Part shown: positions 23,597 to 30,096 of the stretch, one piece after another
How positions within the stretch are numbered: the stretch's first letter is position 1
Layout of the letters: every line of letters begins with the position of its first letter
From: Sphingomonas sp. J315
GTDB taxonomy: Bacteria; Pseudomonadota; Alphaproteobacteria; Sphingomonadales; Sphingomonadaceae
Reading direction: 5' to 3'
Assembly: GCF_024666595.1 (NCBI RefSeq)
Contig: NZ_CP088296.1
Span: 1,364,001 to 1,428,000, forward strand
Length of the DNA: 64,000 nucleotides
Notes under the pieces: generated by a model
Database searches by the model: none
Seen by the model: the letters and a program-made list of their open reading frames with translations, nothing else
Told to the model about the DNA's origin: nothing
Position numbers and translations under genes: made by a program

Positions 23597-25597
23597 TTAC
23601 GCCTTCATATCGGGCGCCAGCGCCGCATCCGCAAGCATCGCGATGGCGTCGTCGAGGCGCATCACCTTCTGCCCCTCGCTGCCCAGCGTGCGGACCGCGA
23701 CCGTGCCCTCCTCGGCCTCGCGCTTGCCGACGACCAGCAAATGCGGGACCTTGGCAAGGCTGTGCTCGCGCACCTTGTAGTTGATCTTCTCGTTGCGCAG
23801 ATCGCTCTCGACCCGGATTCCGGCGGCCTTGAGCTTTACGACCGCATCCTTCGCATAGTCATCCGCATCCGACACGATCGTCGCCACCACCGCCTGCACC
23901 GGCGCCAGCCATACCGGCAGCCTTCCGGCGAAATGCTCGATCAGAATGCCGATGAACCGCTCGTACGAGCCAAAGATCGCGCGGTGCAGCATCACCGGCC
24001 GGTGCCGCTCGCCATCCTCGCCCACGTACGACGCATCCAGCCGCTCGGGCAGCACCCGGTCCGACTGGATCGTCCCCACCTGCCACGTCCGCCCGATCGC
24101 GTCGGTCAGATGCCATTCCAGCTTCGGCGCATAGAAGGCCCCCTCGCCCGGCAGCTCCTCCCAGCCATATTCGGGCGTCGCCAGCCCCGCGCGCACCACC
24201 GCGTCGCGCAGCTCATTCTCCGCCTTGTCCCAGTCGGCGTCGGAGCCAAAGCGCTTCTCGGGCCGCAGCGCCAGCTTGATCGAATAGGTGAAGCCGAAGT
24301 CGCGATACACCCGGTCCGCCAGCTCGCAGAAGGCCTGCACCTCGGCGACGATCTGGTCCTCGCGGCAAAAGATATGCGCGTCGTCCTGCGTGAACTGCCG
24401 CACGCGCATCAGCCCGTGCAGCGCGCCATGCGGCTCGTTGCGGTGGCAACAGCCATTCTCGTACAGCCGCAGCGGCAGCTCGCGATAGCTCTTCAGCCCC
24501 TGCCGGAAAATCAGCACATGCGCCGGGCAGTTCATCGGCTTCAGCGCCATCCAGTCGGCCTCGCCGCTGATCACCGGGCCGTCATCGTCGACGTTCGGCA
24601 CCTCGTCGGGGATCACGAACATATTCTCGCGATACTTGCCCCAATGGCCCGACTGCTCCCACTGGCGCGCGTCCATCACCTGCGGCGTCTTGACCTCGCG
24701 ATAGCCAGCAGCATCGATCGCACGGCGCATATAGGCCTCAAGCTGACGCCACACCATGTACCCCTTGGGGTGCCAGAACACGCTGCCATGCGCTTCCTGC
24801 TGCAGGTGGAACAGGTCCATCTCCGCACCCAGCTTGCGATGGTCGCGCTTCGCCGCTTCCTCCAGCTTATGCAGATGCGCGTCGAGCTGCTTCTTGTTGA
24901 GCCAGCCGGTGCCATAGATGCGCGTCAGCTGCGCATTCTTCTGGTCGCCGCGCCAATAGGCCCCCGCGACGCGCATGAGCTTGAACGCCTGCGGATCGAG
25001 CTTGCCGGTCGATGCCAGATGCGGCCCCCGGCACATGTCGAGCCAGTCGTCGCCCGACCAGTACACCGTCAGCTCCTCGCCCTCGGGCAGTTCCTTGGCC
25101 CATTCGGCCTTGAAGCTCTCGCCCTCGGCGGTCCAGCGGTCGATCAGCGCCTGCCGGCTCCACACCTCACGGCGCAGCGGCTTGTCGGCGCGGATGATCT
25201 CGCGCATCTTCTCCTCGATCGCGGGCAGATCCTCCATCGAGAAGGGCGCACGCGACGCCGGAGCCATCACGTCATAGTAAAAACCGTCATCGGTCGCCGG
25301 GCCAAAGGTGATCTGCGTCCCCGGCCACAGCGCCTGCACCGCCTCGGCCAGGATATGCGCAAAGTCATGCCGCGCCAGCTCCAGTGCATCGGCCTCGTCC
25401 CGCGCCGTCACCAGCGCCAGCGCGCTATCCTTCTCCAGCGGCCGCCCGATATCGCGCAATTCGCCATCGACCCGCGCGGCAATCGCCGCCTTGGCCAGCC
25501 CCGGCCCGATCGCGGCGGCAATGTCGCCCGGCGTGGTCCCCGGCGGCACTTCGCGCACCGAGCCATCGGGAAGCGTGATCGAAAGAAGGTCGGCCAT
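23597..25597 (-). CDS. thrS: Threonyl-tRNA synthetase
   Basis: A 666-residue class II aminoacyl-tRNA synthetase that charges tRNA-Thr. Domains in order: TGS (about 1-62, [20 protein letters not shown]), the SAD editing domain ([16 protein letters not shown], with later FYYDVMAP), the catalytic core with motif 2 ([19 protein letters not shown]) and motif 3 ([20 protein letters not shown]), then the anticodon-binding domain. The zinc/threonine site Cys appears in [15 protein letters not shown] follows AGGAT. infC lies 110 bp downstream on the same strand, the classical thrS-infC order. Confidence 0.97.
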
Positions 25598-25831
25598 ATC
25601 AATCCTGCATGTTTGACGTGCCTATGCACGGGCACGCGGCGCTAGAAAAGGGGCAGGATCAGGAGGAGCAGCGCCATCTCACCCGATCCCGGGCAAGAGG
25701 GCGGCGGAGCGGCTCTAACCGCGCACGCCAAACCCTCCCGCCGCGGCGGGAGTGGTGGTGGTAGTGCTGGCGAAGCGATGAGCCATGGCACGGATATAGC
25801 GCGGCGCATGCTTCGACGCTACCCTCCGCCC

Positions 25832-26185
25832 ATGCCCGCCGACCACCGCATCGCCGCCATCCTCCCCTGCCGCGACCTGCAGGCGAGCACCGATTTCTAC
25901 CAGCGCCTCGGCTTTACCCTCGACAGCGACTGGGGCCATTACCGCATCCTGAGCGACGGCAAGGGCTGGCACCTCCATCTGCGCCACGAACCCAACACGC
26001 CCCAGGCCCCCGACAATCCCTTCGGCCTGTACCTCTACGCCGAAGACGTCGACGCCATCGCCAACCGCGTGCGCGATGCGATCATCGAGCCGGGTACACC
26101 CCACCTCAAACCCTGGGGCATGGTCGAATTCGCGGTCAGCGATCCCGACGGGGCACTCGTCCGCGTGGGGCGGGAGGCGAGCTGA
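25832..26185 (+). CDS. VOC family protein (bleomycin-resistance-like)
   Basis: A 117-residue VOC-fold protein: IAAILPCRDLQASTDFYQRL at the start, WHLHLRHEP in module one, NPFGLYLYAEDVDAIANRV and WGMVEFAVSDPDGALVRVGR in module two. Such proteins either sequester antibiotics or act as metalloenzymes, and the ligand is not predictable. The start MPADHRI was preferred; in-frame starts at 25778 and 25808 would add residues with no resemblance to the fold. It stands alone, divergent from thrS. Confidence 0.78.
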   Translation: MPADHRIAAILPCRDLQASTDFYQRLGFTLDSDWGHYRILSDGKGWHLHLRHEPNTPQAPDNPFGLYLYAEDVDAIANRVRDAIIEPGTPHLKPWGMVEFAVSDPDGALVRVGREAS

Positions 26186-26197
26186 CCGCCCGCAATC

Positions 26198-26240
26198 TCT
26201 AGCCCCTCCCGCCTTCGCGGTAGGGGTTGGGAGGGTCTTC
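26198..26240. repeat. Degenerate CCCCTCCCGC hairpin repeat
   Basis: CTAGCCCCTCCCGCCTTCGC followed by GGTAGGGGTTGGGAGGGTC, a looser copy of the elements at 7989-8092, 13 bp after the VOC gene. Confidence 0.5.
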
Positions 26241-26353
26241 TTCTGCGTCTTCTTCAAGCACCCCGACGCATCACAAATTCCTCACCGCCGCCTCATTACC
26301 CCGCGCGCAAACCCCGCCATCCCTGCCCTGTCACCCAGCACAGGAGCCACCCC

Positions 26354-26713
26354 ATGACCCCCACCACCGCGTATCGCAGCGGCATCGCGCTCGTCGGCCT
26401 CACATCCTTCCTGATCGTCTGGACCAGCATCGTCCGCGACGAAGGCAGCGCCGCCGGCAATTTCATGATCATCCTCGCCACCGCCGTCGGCGGCTATGCC
26501 TGCCGCTTCGAAGCCGCCGGTCTTGCCCGCACCATGGCCGGCGTCGCGGCGATGCAGCTCATCCTCGGCCTGCTCACCGCCACCGCCCCGATCACCGCCA
26601 CCCTCCCCGGCGGCGCACCCAAGGCCTTCGCCTTCCACGCGGTGTTCACGCTGCTCTGGCTGGGAAGCGCGGCATTGTTCCGCACCGCTGCACGCAGGAC
26701 GGCGACACACTAA
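26354..26713 (+). CDS. Hypothetical four-helix membrane protein
   Basis: A 119-residue protein with four predicted transmembrane segments: SGIALVGLTSFLIVWTSIV, FMIILATAVGGYACRF, MAGVAAMQLILGLLTAT and FHAVFTLLWLGSAALF. The layout is compact, with a short Arg-rich tail. No family recognised. ACAGGAGCCACCCC precedes the ATG. It is followed within 5 bp by a repeat block and then the periodic GTCGC array. Confidence 0.65.
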   Translation: MTPTTAYRSGIALVGLTSFLIVWTSIVRDEGSAAGNFMIILATAVGGYACRFEAAGLARTMAGVAAMQLILGLLTATAPITATLPGGAPKAFAFHAVFTLLWLGSAALFRTAARRTATH

Positions 26714-26717
26714 CGAT

Positions 26718-26878
26718 CGTCACCCCGGCCCCGTGCCGGGGTCCACCCCCGCCACACGCTCGGCAGCGGAGGCTCCACCTACCAACCCCGCCACAATCGT
26801 CACCCCGGGCTTGACCCGGGGCCCAGCTTCTTCGACCGGCCAAGGCAGCTGGGCCCCGGCTCAAGGCCGGGGTGACGA
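26718..26878. repeat. Tandem pair of GTCACCCCGG inverted repeats
   Basis: Two sub-elements. The first starts CGTCACCCCGGCCCCGTGCC (same subtype as 17779). The second starts CGTCACCCCGGGCTTGACCC (same subtype as 13375) and ends in the opposed arm CGGCTCAAGGCCGGGGTGAC. This occupies the first third of the 516-bp gene-free stretch 26714-27229. Confidence 0.75.
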
Positions 26879-26968
26879 AAGGAGGCGAAATCCGCTTTCC
26901 TACAAACCGCCAAAAAGCGCATAGACTGGCCGATGCGCAACCCGCCCGAAACTACCCTGAAGATACGC

Positions 26969-27171
26969 GACGCGCCGCTGTCGCACGCCGGTCGTGCCGG
27001 GCTCGCGCCACGGTCGCGAACCCGTCGCGCCGGTGTCGCTTGCCCGTCGCACATCGGTCGCGGCACAGTCGCCTCCCCGTCGCCCGCATGTCGCGCCGAT
27101 GGTGTCAGCCCGTCGCGCAGGTGTCGCGTCACAGTCGCCTACCCGGCGCAAACCCGCCCCGTCGCGGTCGT
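26969..27171. repeat. Phased array of GTCGC every 11 bp with variable 6-bp spacers
   Basis: Nineteen consecutive positions in an exact 11-bp register. Exact GTCGC starts at 26980, 27013, 27024, 27035, 27046, 27057, 27068, 27079, 27090, 27112, 27123 and 27134. One-base variants are GACGC (26969), GTCGT (26991 and 27167), CTCGC (27002) and GGCGC (27145). Weak positions are 27101 and 27156. The phase is kept across the degenerate position 27101. Spacers differ, yet CCC, GGT/GAT and ACA endings recur. Eleven bp is about one helical turn, so the pentamers lie on one DNA face. No convincing gene covers it: all plus-strand frames are open but low-complexity and lack ribosome-binding sites. Function unknown. 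Confidence 0.9.
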
Positions 27172-27229
27172 CTCCGCCCCACACACGCCCATTTTCGTCA
27201 GGATCGTCGGACGCCTGTCAGGCGCGCGG

Positions 27230-28045
27230 TCAGATCACCCCGAACGGCACCACCCGGTTGAGCGCGATATGCCCGATCCCCGACCGCCCCAGATACGGCA
27301 CCCCCATCTCACGGCACCAGCGGATGATGATCTGCTCAAGGCTCTCCCCGAACGGCACGTCGTTATCGACCATGTCGGTCACCGCGCCCAGCCGCACGCC
27401 CGCAATGCCCTGCAGCTGCGTGGCATGCGCCATCTGGAACAGCATCCGGTCGATCCGGTACATCGGCTCGCCGACCTCCTCGATATGCAGCACATGGTCG
27501 GTCAGGTCGGGCAGCCACGGCGTGCCGATCATCGCCGCCAGGATCGACAGGTTGAACGCCGCCGCCGGGCGACCGTCCAGCGTCGGCTCCAGCCCGTCGC
27601 GCTTGCCGTCGATCAGCCAGCTCAGCACCCAGCCCGCGTCGGTGCCCTTGTCGTTGACCCCCATGGCGCTCGCCATCGACCCATGCGCCTGCCGCCCGAT
27701 CCGCCGCGCATAGAGCGCACCCAGCATGAACCCCATGTCGGAATAGCCGATATAGGTCTTGGTCTTCGCCGCAGGCCCCAACTTCGACATCGCGACATCG
27801 AGGATGCGGTTGGAACCATATCCGCCGCGCGCGAACCAGATCGCGTCGAACGCCGCGTCATTGGCGAATTCCAGAAACGCCGCCGCGCGGACATCGTCGG
27901 GACCTGCAAAATGCCCCTCGGTCAGGAAGCATTGCGGGTGGAACACGATCTCATGCGCGGGCCAGTACAGCGCCATGAACGCCTGCATCCGCGCCGCCGA
28001 TTCCGCGCTGACTGTCCGTGCCGGTGCGACGACGCCGATCCGCAT
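27230..28045 (-). CDS. ldcA: LD-carboxypeptidase (murein tetrapeptide carboxypeptidase, S66)
   Basis: A 271-residue cytosolic serine peptidase that removes D-Ala from recycled tetrapeptides. FARGGYGSNRIL (about 71-82) and the nucleophile motif YIGYSDMGFM (Ser102) are the family hallmarks; the Glu/His pair should lie in the C-terminal half (HIEEVGEPMYRIDRML, GIGHIALNR). Start MRIGVVAPA is preceded by GAAGGAAAGC. Upstream in-frame sequence is a dispersed repeat and is excluded. It is divergent from a Mur ligase that would use its tripeptide product. The GTCGC array lies past its stop codon. Confidence 0.88.
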   Translation of the reverse strand: MRIGVVAPARTVSAESAARMQAFMALYWPAHEIVFHPQCFLTEGHFAGPDDVRAAAFLEFANDAAFDAIWFARGGYGSNRILDVAMSKLGPAAKTKTYIGYSDMGFMLGALYARRIGRQAHGSMASAMGVNDKGTDAGWVLSWLIDGKRDGLEPTLDGRPAAAFNLSILAAMIGTPWLPDLTDHVLHIEEVGEPMYRIDRMLFQMAHATQLQGIAGVRLGAVTDMVDNDVPFGESLEQIIIRWCREMGVPYLGRSGIGHIALNRVVPFGVI

Positions 28046-28060
28046 AGCTTTCCTTCGCCT

Positions 28061-28150
28061 GTCCCGCTCATGCTGAGCTTGTCGAAGCACCGTTCTTTCT
28101 GCTCGACCCGTCGAAGAAGAACGGCCCTTCGACAAGCGCAGGGCGAACGG
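28061..28150. repeat. Inverted repeat with GAGCTTGTCGAAG arms
   Basis: The left arm TGAGCTTGTCGAAGCACCGT TCTTTCT is opposed by AGAAGAACGGCCCTTCGACA AGCGCAGGGCGAACGG. Both arms carry the GCTTGTCGAAG core. The element separates the divergent ldcA and Mur ligase genes, so it lies in their promoter region. Confidence 0.65.
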
Positions 28151-28197
28151 AAGTGGGACACGCTTGCCCCCTGTCTCCGAACCCGCGATAGCCCGGC

Positions 28198-29595
28198 ATG
28201 ATGGAACACGGCAAACCCCATTTTTTCGTCGGGATCGGCGGCAGCGGCATGATGCCGCTCGCGATGATCCTCGCCGGCCAGGGCGCGAGCGTCGCCGGCT
28301 CGGACCGCAGCCTCGACTCCGGGCGCCTCCCCGCCAAGTTCGACGCGCTGCGCAACCTCGGCATCGACCTATTCCCGCAGGACGGCAGCGGCATCACCTC
28401 TTCCGATCAGGTGGTGATCGCATCCGCCGCAGTCGAAGCCACCGTCCCCGACATGGTTCAGGCCGCCAGCCTCGGCTGCCCCCGCATGACCCGGGCCGAA
28501 CTCAACGCGAAACTGTTCAACGCCGCCCCGCTGTCGATCGGCGTCGCGGGGACCAGCGGCAAGTCGACCGTCACCGGCATGATCGCGTGGATCCTGTACA
28601 GCCTCGACCGCGATCCCACGGTGATGAACGGCGCGGTGATGAAGAATTTCGTGCGGCCCGAAGCACCGTTCGCCAGCGCATTGGTCGGCGAGGGCGACCT
28701 CTATGTCAGCGAGGTGGACGAGAGCGACGGCTCGATCGCGCTCTACACTCCGCAGGTCGCGGTGCTCAACAATGTCAGCCTTGACCACAAGAGCCTCGAG
28801 GAACTCCGCACCCTGTTCGGCGACTTCGCGGCCAAGGCGCGCACCACCATCGTCAATATCGGCGACCCGGAAAGCGCGGAACTGGCGAGGGCGCTCGACC
28901 CGGCCCGCACGCGAACCTTCGCGGTCGATGCCGAAGCGGACCTCTCCGCCCGCAACCTGACGCCCGAACCCTTCGCGATCAGCTTCGACCTCGAAATGGA
29001 CGGCGCCACCCGCCGCATCCGCCTATCGGTGCCCGGCACCCACAATGTCGCCAACGCCCTCGCCGCGATCGGCGCTTGCATCGCCGCCGGTCTCGACCCC
29101 GATGCGGTATGCGAGGCGATTCAGGGCTTCACCGGCCTGCGCCGCCGCTTCGAACTGGTCGGCGAAGCGAACGGCGTCGCGGTGATCGACGATTTCGGGC
29201 ACAACCCCGACAAGATCGGGGCGACGCTCGACACGCTCCACGCCTTTCCCGGCCGCATCCTCGCGCTGTTCCAGCCGCACGGCTATGGCCCGCTCAAGGT
29301 GATGCGCAGCGAACTCGTCGCGATGTTCGCCGACAAGCTCGCGCCGGGCGACCAGCTGATCCTCCCCGACCCGGTCTATCAGGGCGGCACCGTCACGCGC
29401 GAAGTGACCAGCGCCGACATCATCGCCGACATCGCCGCCACCGACCGCGATGCCCGCCACATCCCCGACCGCGCCGCCGCCGCCGCCCACCTCGCCGCCA
29501 TCGCCCAGCCCGGCGACCGCATCGTCATCATGGGGGCAAGGGACGACACGCTCAGCCTGCTCGCGCAAAGCATCCTCGACGATTTGGAAAGGTAG
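28198..29595 (+). CDS. Mur ligase family protein (Mpl/MurC-like)
   Basis: A 465-residue ATP-dependent ligase. HFFVGIGGSGMMPLAMIL (about 8-25) is a MurC/Mpl-type UDP-binding Rossmann loop, GVAGTSGKSTVTGMIAW (about 117-133) is the ATP P-loop, VSEVDESDGSI and NNVSLDH follow, and the C-terminal domain has VIDDFGHNPDKIGATL and ILALFQPHGYGPL. It is either UDP-MurNAc-L-Ala ligase or Mpl, which attaches recycled tripeptide to UDP-MurNAc. The latter is favoured because ldcA is its divergent neighbour and because a true murC would normally sit in the division cluster. No recycling permease is seen nearby. Confidence 0.85.
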   Translation: MMEHGKPHFFVGIGGSGMMPLAMILAGQGASVAGSDRSLDSGRLPAKFDALRNLGIDLFPQDGSGITSSDQVVIASAAVEATVPDMVQAASLGCPRMTRAELNAKLFNAAPLSIGVAGTSGKSTVTGMIAWILYSLDRDPTVMNGAVMKNFVRPEAPFASALVGEGDLYVSEVDESDGSIALYTPQVAVLNNVSLDHKSLEELRTLFGDFAAKARTTIVNIGDPESAELARALDPARTRTFAVDAEADLSARNLTPEPFAISFDLEMDGATRRIRLSVPGTHNVANALAAIGACIAAGLDPDAVCEAIQGFTGLRRRFELVGEANGVAVIDDFGHNPDKIGATLDTLHAFPGRILALFQPHGYGPLKVMRSELVAMFADKLAPGDQLILPDPVYQGGTVTREVTSADIIADIAATDRDARHIPDRAAAAAHLAAIAQPGDRIVIMGARDDTLSLLAQSILDDLER

Positions 29596-29605
29596 GCAAT
29601 CTTTT

Positions 29606-29657
29606 TGTAAAGCTACATTGACATCGCCAATCAGATCGGCGTAAAGCTCACTTGTCA
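29606..29657 (+). promoter_or_regulatory. Putative promoter with two operator-like repeats
   Basis: TGTAAAGCTACATTGACA (29606-29623) and CGTAAAGCTCACTTGTCA (29640-29657) match at 13 of 18 positions, 34 bp apart. The first ends in a perfect -35 TTGACA; 17 bp later comes GTAAAG, a weak -10 overlapping the second copy. The layout fits autoregulation by the XRE regulator encoded downstream. Inference from pattern only. Confidence 0.5.
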
Positions 29658-29678
29658 TTTGAACAAGGGAGCTTTCCA

Positions 29679-30096
29679 ATGCGCAACACCACCCCCGCCG
29701 GTCGGCGCTACATCGCCCGGTTCATGCCGCTGATCGCGGTCTATGTCGCAACGCTGTTCATCACGACCTGGGTGATCCGCGACAGCCAGCCCTCTGGCGC
29801 GCTGCTCGGCCTGCTTTCGGTCCTCCCCGCCCTGCCGCTGGTCGGGATCATCGCCGTCCTCGGCCTGTACGTCGTCGAAGAGAGTGACGAATATCTCCGC
29901 TCGCAAATCGTCCGCCACATGATGGTCGGCCTTGGCGGCCTGCTGGCGATCATGAGCATCTGGGGGGTTCCTGGAGTTCGGCGGCGCCGTCCCGCACTTC
30001 CCGACGATGCTGGGCTTCCCGATCTGGTGCGGCATCTGGGGCATCAGCCAGTGCGTCTCCGCCCTGCGCAACCGCAAGTCGGAGGAGGAAGCATGA
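29679..30096 (+). pseudogene. Hypothetical membrane protein, frameshifted
   Basis: Start ATG 29679 follows AAGGGAGC. Four hydrophobic segments can be read: FMPLIAVYVATLFITTWVI, LLGLLSVLPALPLVGIIAVL, MMVGLGGLLAIMSIW and, beyond the break, FPIWCGIWGISQCV. At 29962-29967 six G shift the frame; five G give SIWGFLEFGGAVPHFPTMLG and a stop at 30094-30096, 138 residues. The corrected stop overlaps the ATG of the downstream XRE gene (ATGA), which strongly supports the correction. Probably a sequence error. The pair resembles membrane-protein/XRE modules common in sphingomonads, function unknown. Confidence 0.75.

Follow-up and report, generated by a model that had tools for sequence, protein, structure and literature searches.

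Operators of the ArcA/PhoB/OmpR type are built from short direct repeats at 11-bp centre-to-centre steps, and in the available part of the ArcA report most sites hold two to five of them (PMC3798270). An array of GTCGC pentamers in a 64,000-nt stretch of the Sphingomonas sp. J315 chromosome (NZ_CP088296.1, 1364001-1428000; hereafter the window) is laid out in the same way, with direct repeats one per ~11 bp as in a tandem helix-turn-helix (HTH) operator of the ArcA-like mode. Unlike ArcA-type operators, arrays of this kind hold up to 20 units, lie downstream of a promoter-like block, are dispersed together with a 3' block, and are linked to a protein predicted to be an HTH protein like the phage terminase small subunits (TerS), not a winged-helix response regulator. 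TerS of the SPP1 type forms a ring that presents HTHs about one helical turn apart and round which DNA may wrap, as far as the available part of that source describes it (PMC4737164). TerS has an HTH fold, and one resembling it is predicted for the partner protein, but the predicted helices of the partner stop by residue 72, so that a ring-forming domain is not evident, it had no match in phage and plasmid collections at E 1e-5, and the arrays, unlike pac sites, are chromosomal and numerous.

Beggiatoaceae and Cyanobacteria carry TAACTGA direct repeats that, like the GTCGC arrays, are dispersed and mostly intergenic, occur in up to 43 copies and are of unknown function (PMC4679880); there the heptamer itself is tandemly copied, and neither a variable spacer nor shared ends nor a linked gene is mentioned in the available part of the report. 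TIGR arrays likewise combine short repeats with short variable spacers, the accessible text giving two alternating 8-12-nt repeats, 9-nt spacers and an adjacent Nop-domain protein (PMC12045711). A TIGR-Tas system was rejected: the Nop domain (PF01798) was found in 0/8 array-bearing genomes, with the control set positive in 4 archaea, and the arrays here have a 5-bp core, a 6-bp spacer and one repeat type. CRISPR geometry, with repeats of tens of bases and longer unique spacers, does not fit the sequence. Literature searches, leaving out all bioRxiv preprints and most subscription papers, returned no description of such arrays, in agreement with a preliminary description of the window that knew of no named element of this form. 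The array element is real, selected and undescribed in the literature searched, and its dispersed units with phased sites, together with the linked HTH protein, point to an undescribed two-part system.

The array (26969-27171) was recounted with the same figures as in the preliminary description: 19 positions at 11-bp steps, exact GTCGC at 12 of them and pentamers one base off at five (26969 GACGC, 26991 GTCGT, 27002 CTCGC, 27145 GGCGC, 27167 GTCGT), with two that are worse (27101 GGTGT, 27156 GCCCC). GTCGC ranked top among all 1024 pentamers for 11-bp phasing in the window (12/19); the runner-up, TCGCG, reached 7 and overlaps GTCGC, and dinucleotide shuffles (n=60) gave at most 3/19 phased GTCGC. 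The unit at 27101 (GGTGTCAG) had been called degenerate. Phase does hold across it, but it reflects more than decay, since units of the G[GT]TGTCA type are met again elsewhere, both in further arrays of the source genome (G000) and in those of two more genomes (G015, G133). Tandem Repeats Finder reported weak 33- and 66-bp periods over 27024-27149 (matches 66 and 78%), because of which the array is in part a diverged minisatellite; the earlier statement that this is not an ordinary tandem repeat stands for the spacers, which diverge far more than the core, and yields to that extent for the periods. At the textbook value of 10.5 bp per turn of B-DNA, 18 steps of 11 bp drift by ~9 bp, so that the pentamers leave the single face of straight B-DNA on which every GTCGC had been placed. 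The value of 10.5 bp per turn is also stated in the available part of the ArcA paper (PMC3798270).

Counting that of the window, the genome has at least ten such arrays, which belong to a dispersed family. In the source genome (3.93 Mb, one contig), three exact tandem units occur 25 times at 10 loci, with 0 for the reversed control. Four exact units were found in 4/61 genomes in a sample of relatives (control 0) and in 20/250 genus genomes (control matched in 1), the sole match in one of the 20 (G074) being a near-identical repeat. A stricter pattern (Y at position 7) matched 4/387 class genomes (control matched in 1), and two of the four (G453, G486) hold plain identical repeats. In Sphingobium, 7/8 loci read have arrays whose ends are of the same type, and one (L141) does not. 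Arrays of the same form, which the preliminary description had proposed to seek in relatives, are thus present in both genera. At the ldcA locus the element was present in 2/25 genus genomes (G000 and G015, 12 phased GTCGC each); the other 23 had at most 2 phased GTCGC and differing flanking genes, and a clean empty site was not found among the 25. With a simple gene caller, 0/57 arrays examined overlapped predicted genes, and where both neighbours were called their orientations relative to the array were ++ 25, +- 13, -+ 10 and -- 7. At L036 and L126 (G015, G068) the array runs to the start codon of an IspD-like gene, without a 3' block.

Divergence was compared pairwise among 12 sequences that form four orthologous sets, with 127 edge columns (61 mismatched) set aside. 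Pentamer positions differed at 71/795 (8.9%) and spacers at 234/954 (24.5%), in a comparison biased by the finding of loci through the pentamer, although three or four exact units sufficed for an array to be included; the earlier proposal of selection on the pentamer and its spacing is upheld by this difference. In a minisatellite the whole unit is copied and the spacer is as similar as the core, which is not what these figures give. The flanks of the same loci differed at 156/1338 positions over 110 nt downstream and at 289/1358 (21.3%) over 110 nt upstream. In a logo of 612 units from 72 arrays, the pentamer read G99 T88 C93 G95 C93, followed by G62/C20, Y86 (G only 2%) and weaker positions. 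Steps in 65 loci comprised 341 of 11 bp, 19 one base short and 0 one base long; in Sphingomonadaceae, single-base shortening thus occurs and one-base lengthening was not seen. Clean gaps inside orthologous arrays were one of 33 bp at ldcA, which is the difference to the 16-unit array of G015, and one of 11 bp (L105). In one set (L051/L015/L108) the array start aligned poorly.

One array in G114 holds 16 identical units, which suggests that units arise by slippage, and some arrays of that genome are recent perfect 11-bp expansions; in other arrays the units differ in spacer. Such expansions, the patchy distribution of the arrays and the presence of the ldcA element in 2/25 genus genomes would suit neutral or selfish minisatellites, or copies like miniature inverted-repeat transposable elements, that spread and decay without function. 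This explanation is improbable given the constraint on the pentamer, the likeness of 3' blocks within a genome and the retention of elements between species at four orthologous loci, ldcA and thiD among them.

Flanks were compared across members, and most show one order: a 5' block, then the array after a leader of usually ~80 nt, and last a 3' block. The 5' block takes the form TTTCCTACA...CATAgACTGGtCGATG or CTTsCAATGTwGGATTT..CTGATCTA..CTGATCGATG. Its pattern was found upstream of 53/61 arrays, downstream of 1 and in 0 of the stretches 900 bp upstream. The block is kept at the orthologous ldcA locus of G015, its other form precedes tRNA-Trp in G000, both forms precede a small HTH gene at other loci, and at L380 (G027) it precedes a gene whose ATG sits at the block end. 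Because it also precedes tRNA-Trp and the L380 gene, we infer the 5' block to be a promoter. Eight arrays lacked the block: five lie directly behind a small HTH gene that itself has it, one behind def, one (L130, G068) behind a box of uncertain direction, presumably LexA-type from its motif GTTC-N7-GTTC, in place of the block, and one is L100.

The 3' block mostly lies 30-60 nt past the last pentamer and is uniform within a genome and different between genomes: TTTTCGTCAGCTTCGTCGGA in G000, G015 and G133, AACTGTCAACTTCGTCAACCG in G029, GAGTCAACTTAGTCAACATTT in G114, ACACTAAACTTCCTCAACATTCG in G163 and GTGAACTTCGCC in Sphingobium. With <=3 mismatches, TTTTCGTCAGCTTCGTCGGA occurs at 13 places in G000 (reversed control 0), 9 of them at array loci and 4 elsewhere. 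A 3'-block pattern was unrecognised behind 15/68 arrays. Matches to the 3' block without a three-unit array nearby were seen at L095 and L096 (G000:2598984, 3376384), and L381 (G027) has a 5' and a 3' block with no array between.

The partner is an HTH protein of ~100 residues, with copies in the source genome at G000:C1:2143507 and 2170557, so the earlier remark that no dedicated gene is evident does not extend beyond the window. The gene was recognised in locus translations, having been missed as short by the simple gene caller, and the search for it covered Sphingomonas genomes. Close homologues were found in 18/20 array genomes and 9/230 other genus genomes; a protein family that tracks with the arrays, as the preliminary description had suggested looking for, therefore exists. 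Among the genomes inspected, the HTH gene stands ahead of the array in one or two family members. The gene lies under the same 5' block as the array units in 24/24 parsed loci, and runs into an 11-bp-phased array in 22/24 loci examined. The protein is predicted to resemble TerS. A PDB sequence search found no relative below E 0.5, and the sole PADLOC match, obtained with one of two proteins, was a weak one to DruK (E 0.004).

The shared block raises the possibility that the 5' block (TGTwGGA / TTTCCTACA) is itself the target of the HTH protein, which would control a promoter regulon in which the arrays are passengers. That is unlikely, given a pentamer more constrained than its spacers, the retention of a phased array after the HTH gene in 22/24 loci and a block that also precedes tRNA-Trp.

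The best explanation of the whole, to which a probability of roughly 0.4 is given, is that the phased-site units and the HTH protein, bound in tandem, act on DNA to govern transcription. Tandem binding of the arrays is, judged from sequence, the most likely role of the protein; it is suggested by a 5-7-bp site in every 11 bp, by shortening without lengthening, by the HTH fold and by linkage. Each member of the family, a short intergenic element, runs from the promoter-like block through a leader (typically ~80 nt) into the phased GTCGC-(G/C)-Y units, 20 at most, and on to the 3' block. The HTH protein would be the cognate factor of the arrays, one HTH contacting each GTCGC site in the major groove and the subunits aligning head to tail, once per 11-bp step. 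A nucleoprotein filament or wrap could so form just downstream of each promoter, in one polarity, and would govern transcription of the unit, the HTH gene included (feedback), and insulate neighbours. Array length would change by slippage in whole units, tuning occupancy. If this is true, some Sphingomonadaceae co-inherit a tiny HTH protein and at least ten strictly phased multi-site arrays whose site number is set by slippage, and these would form a natural series of differing site number in which to measure how DNA-binding proteins assemble cooperatively.

This account is weakest in its mechanism, and several observations weigh against tandem binding on DNA. Two array genomes (G079, G160) have no close HTH homologue. 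In Foldseek searches with the HTH protein, the best solved structure had E 1.0 and none reached E<=0.001, and TerS scored no better than CoREST SANT domains. One of two paralogue loci also matched the 5'-block pattern. The HTH protein could act at the 5' block instead of the array. Only the core of the 5' block appears conserved, because the upstream 110-nt flanks diverge by 21.3%, and the pentamer constraint is partly ascertained, because loci were found through the pentamer. Arrays in a Coriobacteriaceae metagenome-assembled genome (MAG) contain 12-bp steps. Lastly, boxA-like leaders, in G114 and before Rhodospirillales arrays, favour RNA, and arrays keep one orientation to transcription (59/61), which a purely DNA-level site would not need.

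These last points suit array units that are non-coding RNA genes, in which GUCGC every 11 nt would form an unstructured multivalent platform or decoy for an RNA-binding factor, on the model of CsrB-type sponge RNAs, while the HTH protein only regulates promoters. This is the main alternative, tenable if tentative, and if it is true instead, the units form a new multi-copy non-coding RNA family. Of the 59 sense-oriented arrays, 53 are preceded by a 5' block and 6 by the end of a co-directional gene; the promoter block is shared with tRNA-Trp, and the sense strand is pyrimidine-rich with A at only 7%. Leaders in G114 have TCTTTGA in 15/15 cases (12/15 by a stricter pattern), and GCTGTTTGA, boxA-like by the E. 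coli consensus, lies 89-134 nt upstream of 7/8 Rhodospirillales array loci. In the available parts of two reports, boxA is documented ahead of untranslated arrays and RNAs (PMC7862264) and found ahead of untranslated RNAs (PMC4807359). A boxA-like pattern was, however, upstream of only 14/61 Sphingomonas arrays (0 downstream) and 0/10 in G000. The strict 11-bp step without lengthening is hard to explain for a flexible single-stranded RNA, and the linked protein has a DNA-binding-type fold. In two of six groups, G114 and that of G000, a hairpin around the 3' block reached p 0.02 by permutation, and it was non-significant in the other four; a hairpin was also seen by eye in the G114 leader.

A conserved RNA fold was not found: z was +1.3 and +1.6 for the window, and 51 arrays had mean z of -0.90 (sense) and -0.71 (antisense), so the structured RNA once offered as a possible role finds no support. 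Rfam covariance models reported nothing at gathering score in window positions 25000-30000, and only two tRNAs in eight related loci. The repeat polypeptide of 33 bp or 11 codons, earlier thought less likely, was rejected. Translations of 53 arrays were examined (15 more, without a recognised 3' block, were dropped), and among the translations listed the unit number is not a multiple of three, the frame of the 3' block is inconsistent and stops occur in G114. A Pfam scan of the two window open reading frames (ORFs) through the array gave no match. One frame of the 3' block translates as VNFVN in several genomes, but it is inconsistent with that of the array and preceded by stops in some G114 loci.

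Rho utilisation (rut) sites are C-rich and G-poor, with YC spaced ~9-13 nt. UC stands in most units at the 11-nt step, a period that suits such sites, and might load Rho, and some genomes have boxA-like leaders; nevertheless this is very improbable, as the arrays are not G-poor (C 39%, G 33%) and conservation within the pentamer is lowest at position 2 (G in 7% of units), with G1, G4 and C5 conserved.

GTCGC arrays beyond the family were sought in an all-species scan, from which matches listed are described and no counts derived; positions 6-7 were left free by the search pattern. Among the matches listed, variable-spacer arrays occur in Asaia, Telmatospirillum and Rhodospirillaceae MAGs, diverse ones in the Coriobacteriaceae MAG, and more uniform ones in a Dehalococcoidia genome and a Bacteroidetes MAG (SZAS TMP-66); most others listed are low-diversity repeats. 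The Dehalococcoidia genome had 164 three-unit matches (control 0). R-Y follows the pentamer in 22/22 Dehalococcoidia units, in 37/54 from other diverse arrays, 13/24 where an array has three distinct units, 17/53 from low-diversity arrays and 50/95 in Sphingomonadaceae, where only Y holds well. A wider claim is doubtful, namely that a domesticated TerS-like HTH protein coats or wraps DNA at ten or more phased arrays per genome, forming a sequence-programmed nucleoprotein knot in a new chromosomal array class, and that the heptamer logic of GTCGC-R-Y every 11 bp recurs across phyla in a broader set of array genes, which in Rhodospirillales would have boxA-like leaders and in a Dehalococcoidia genome promoters of the sigma70 type.

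In Dehalococcoidia OY282365 (L135, L139, L155, L190), a dispersed GTCGCATARGT array family was read, with TTGAC..N..TAGAGT/TACGGT upstream, comparable to sigma70 hexamers, and GCGACACTTT, the unit's complement, downstream. At seven Rhodospirillales loci (L166, L192, L209, L171, L207, L384, L412) the leader contains the boxA-like GCTGTTTGA and the GTCGC-R-Y units are for the most part variable, and the array at L207 points at the 3' end of rpoD. In the Coriobacteriaceae MAG, 12-bp steps stand among 11-bp ones (L142, L389, L409), and terminator-like hairpins were seen by eye after two of the arrays (L142, L389). Viral contigs held at least 120 stretches with four units, among the matches listed mostly with few distinct spacers; in several IMG/VR contigs (L257, L263, L269), pairs of arrays lie on opposite strands ~100 bp apart.

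Coordinates of the element and its neighbour in the window are given in Table 1.

Table 1. Features of the GTCGC array element and the adjacent gene, in window positions.
Feature	Positions	Strand	Remarks
5' block (promoter-like)	26895..26935	+	CTTTCCTACA, then CATAGACTGG..GATG; TTCCTA 26897-26902 and CATAGA 26920-26925, 17 bp apart; ATG 26933
Leader, 5' block to array	26936..26968	+	Read from sequence; boxA-like match upstream in 0/10 G000 arrays tested
GTCGC-N6 array, 19 units of 11 bp	26969..27171	+	Last pentamer 27167-27171
Recurrent variant unit GGTGTCAGCCC	27101..27111	+	G[GT]TGTCA-type units in arrays of G000, G015, G133
3' block TTTTCGTCAGGATCGTCGGA	27192..27211	+	Matches of TTTTCGTCAGCTTCGTCGGA across G000 with <=3 mismatches
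ldcA, LD-carboxypeptidase (Peptidase_S66)	27230..28045	-	Pfam PF02016/PF17676, scanned ORF 27230-28135; convergent neighbour outside the element

Upstream of the element, a 119-residue ORF (26354-26713) gave no match in a Pfam scan. Inverted repeats resembling repetitive extragenic palindromic (REP) sequences flank the element at 26720-26880 and 28073-28141 (GTCACCCCGG...CCGGGGTGACG; CTTGTCGAAGCACC...), and these repeats produce noise from microRNA and small-RNA models in the Rfam scan.
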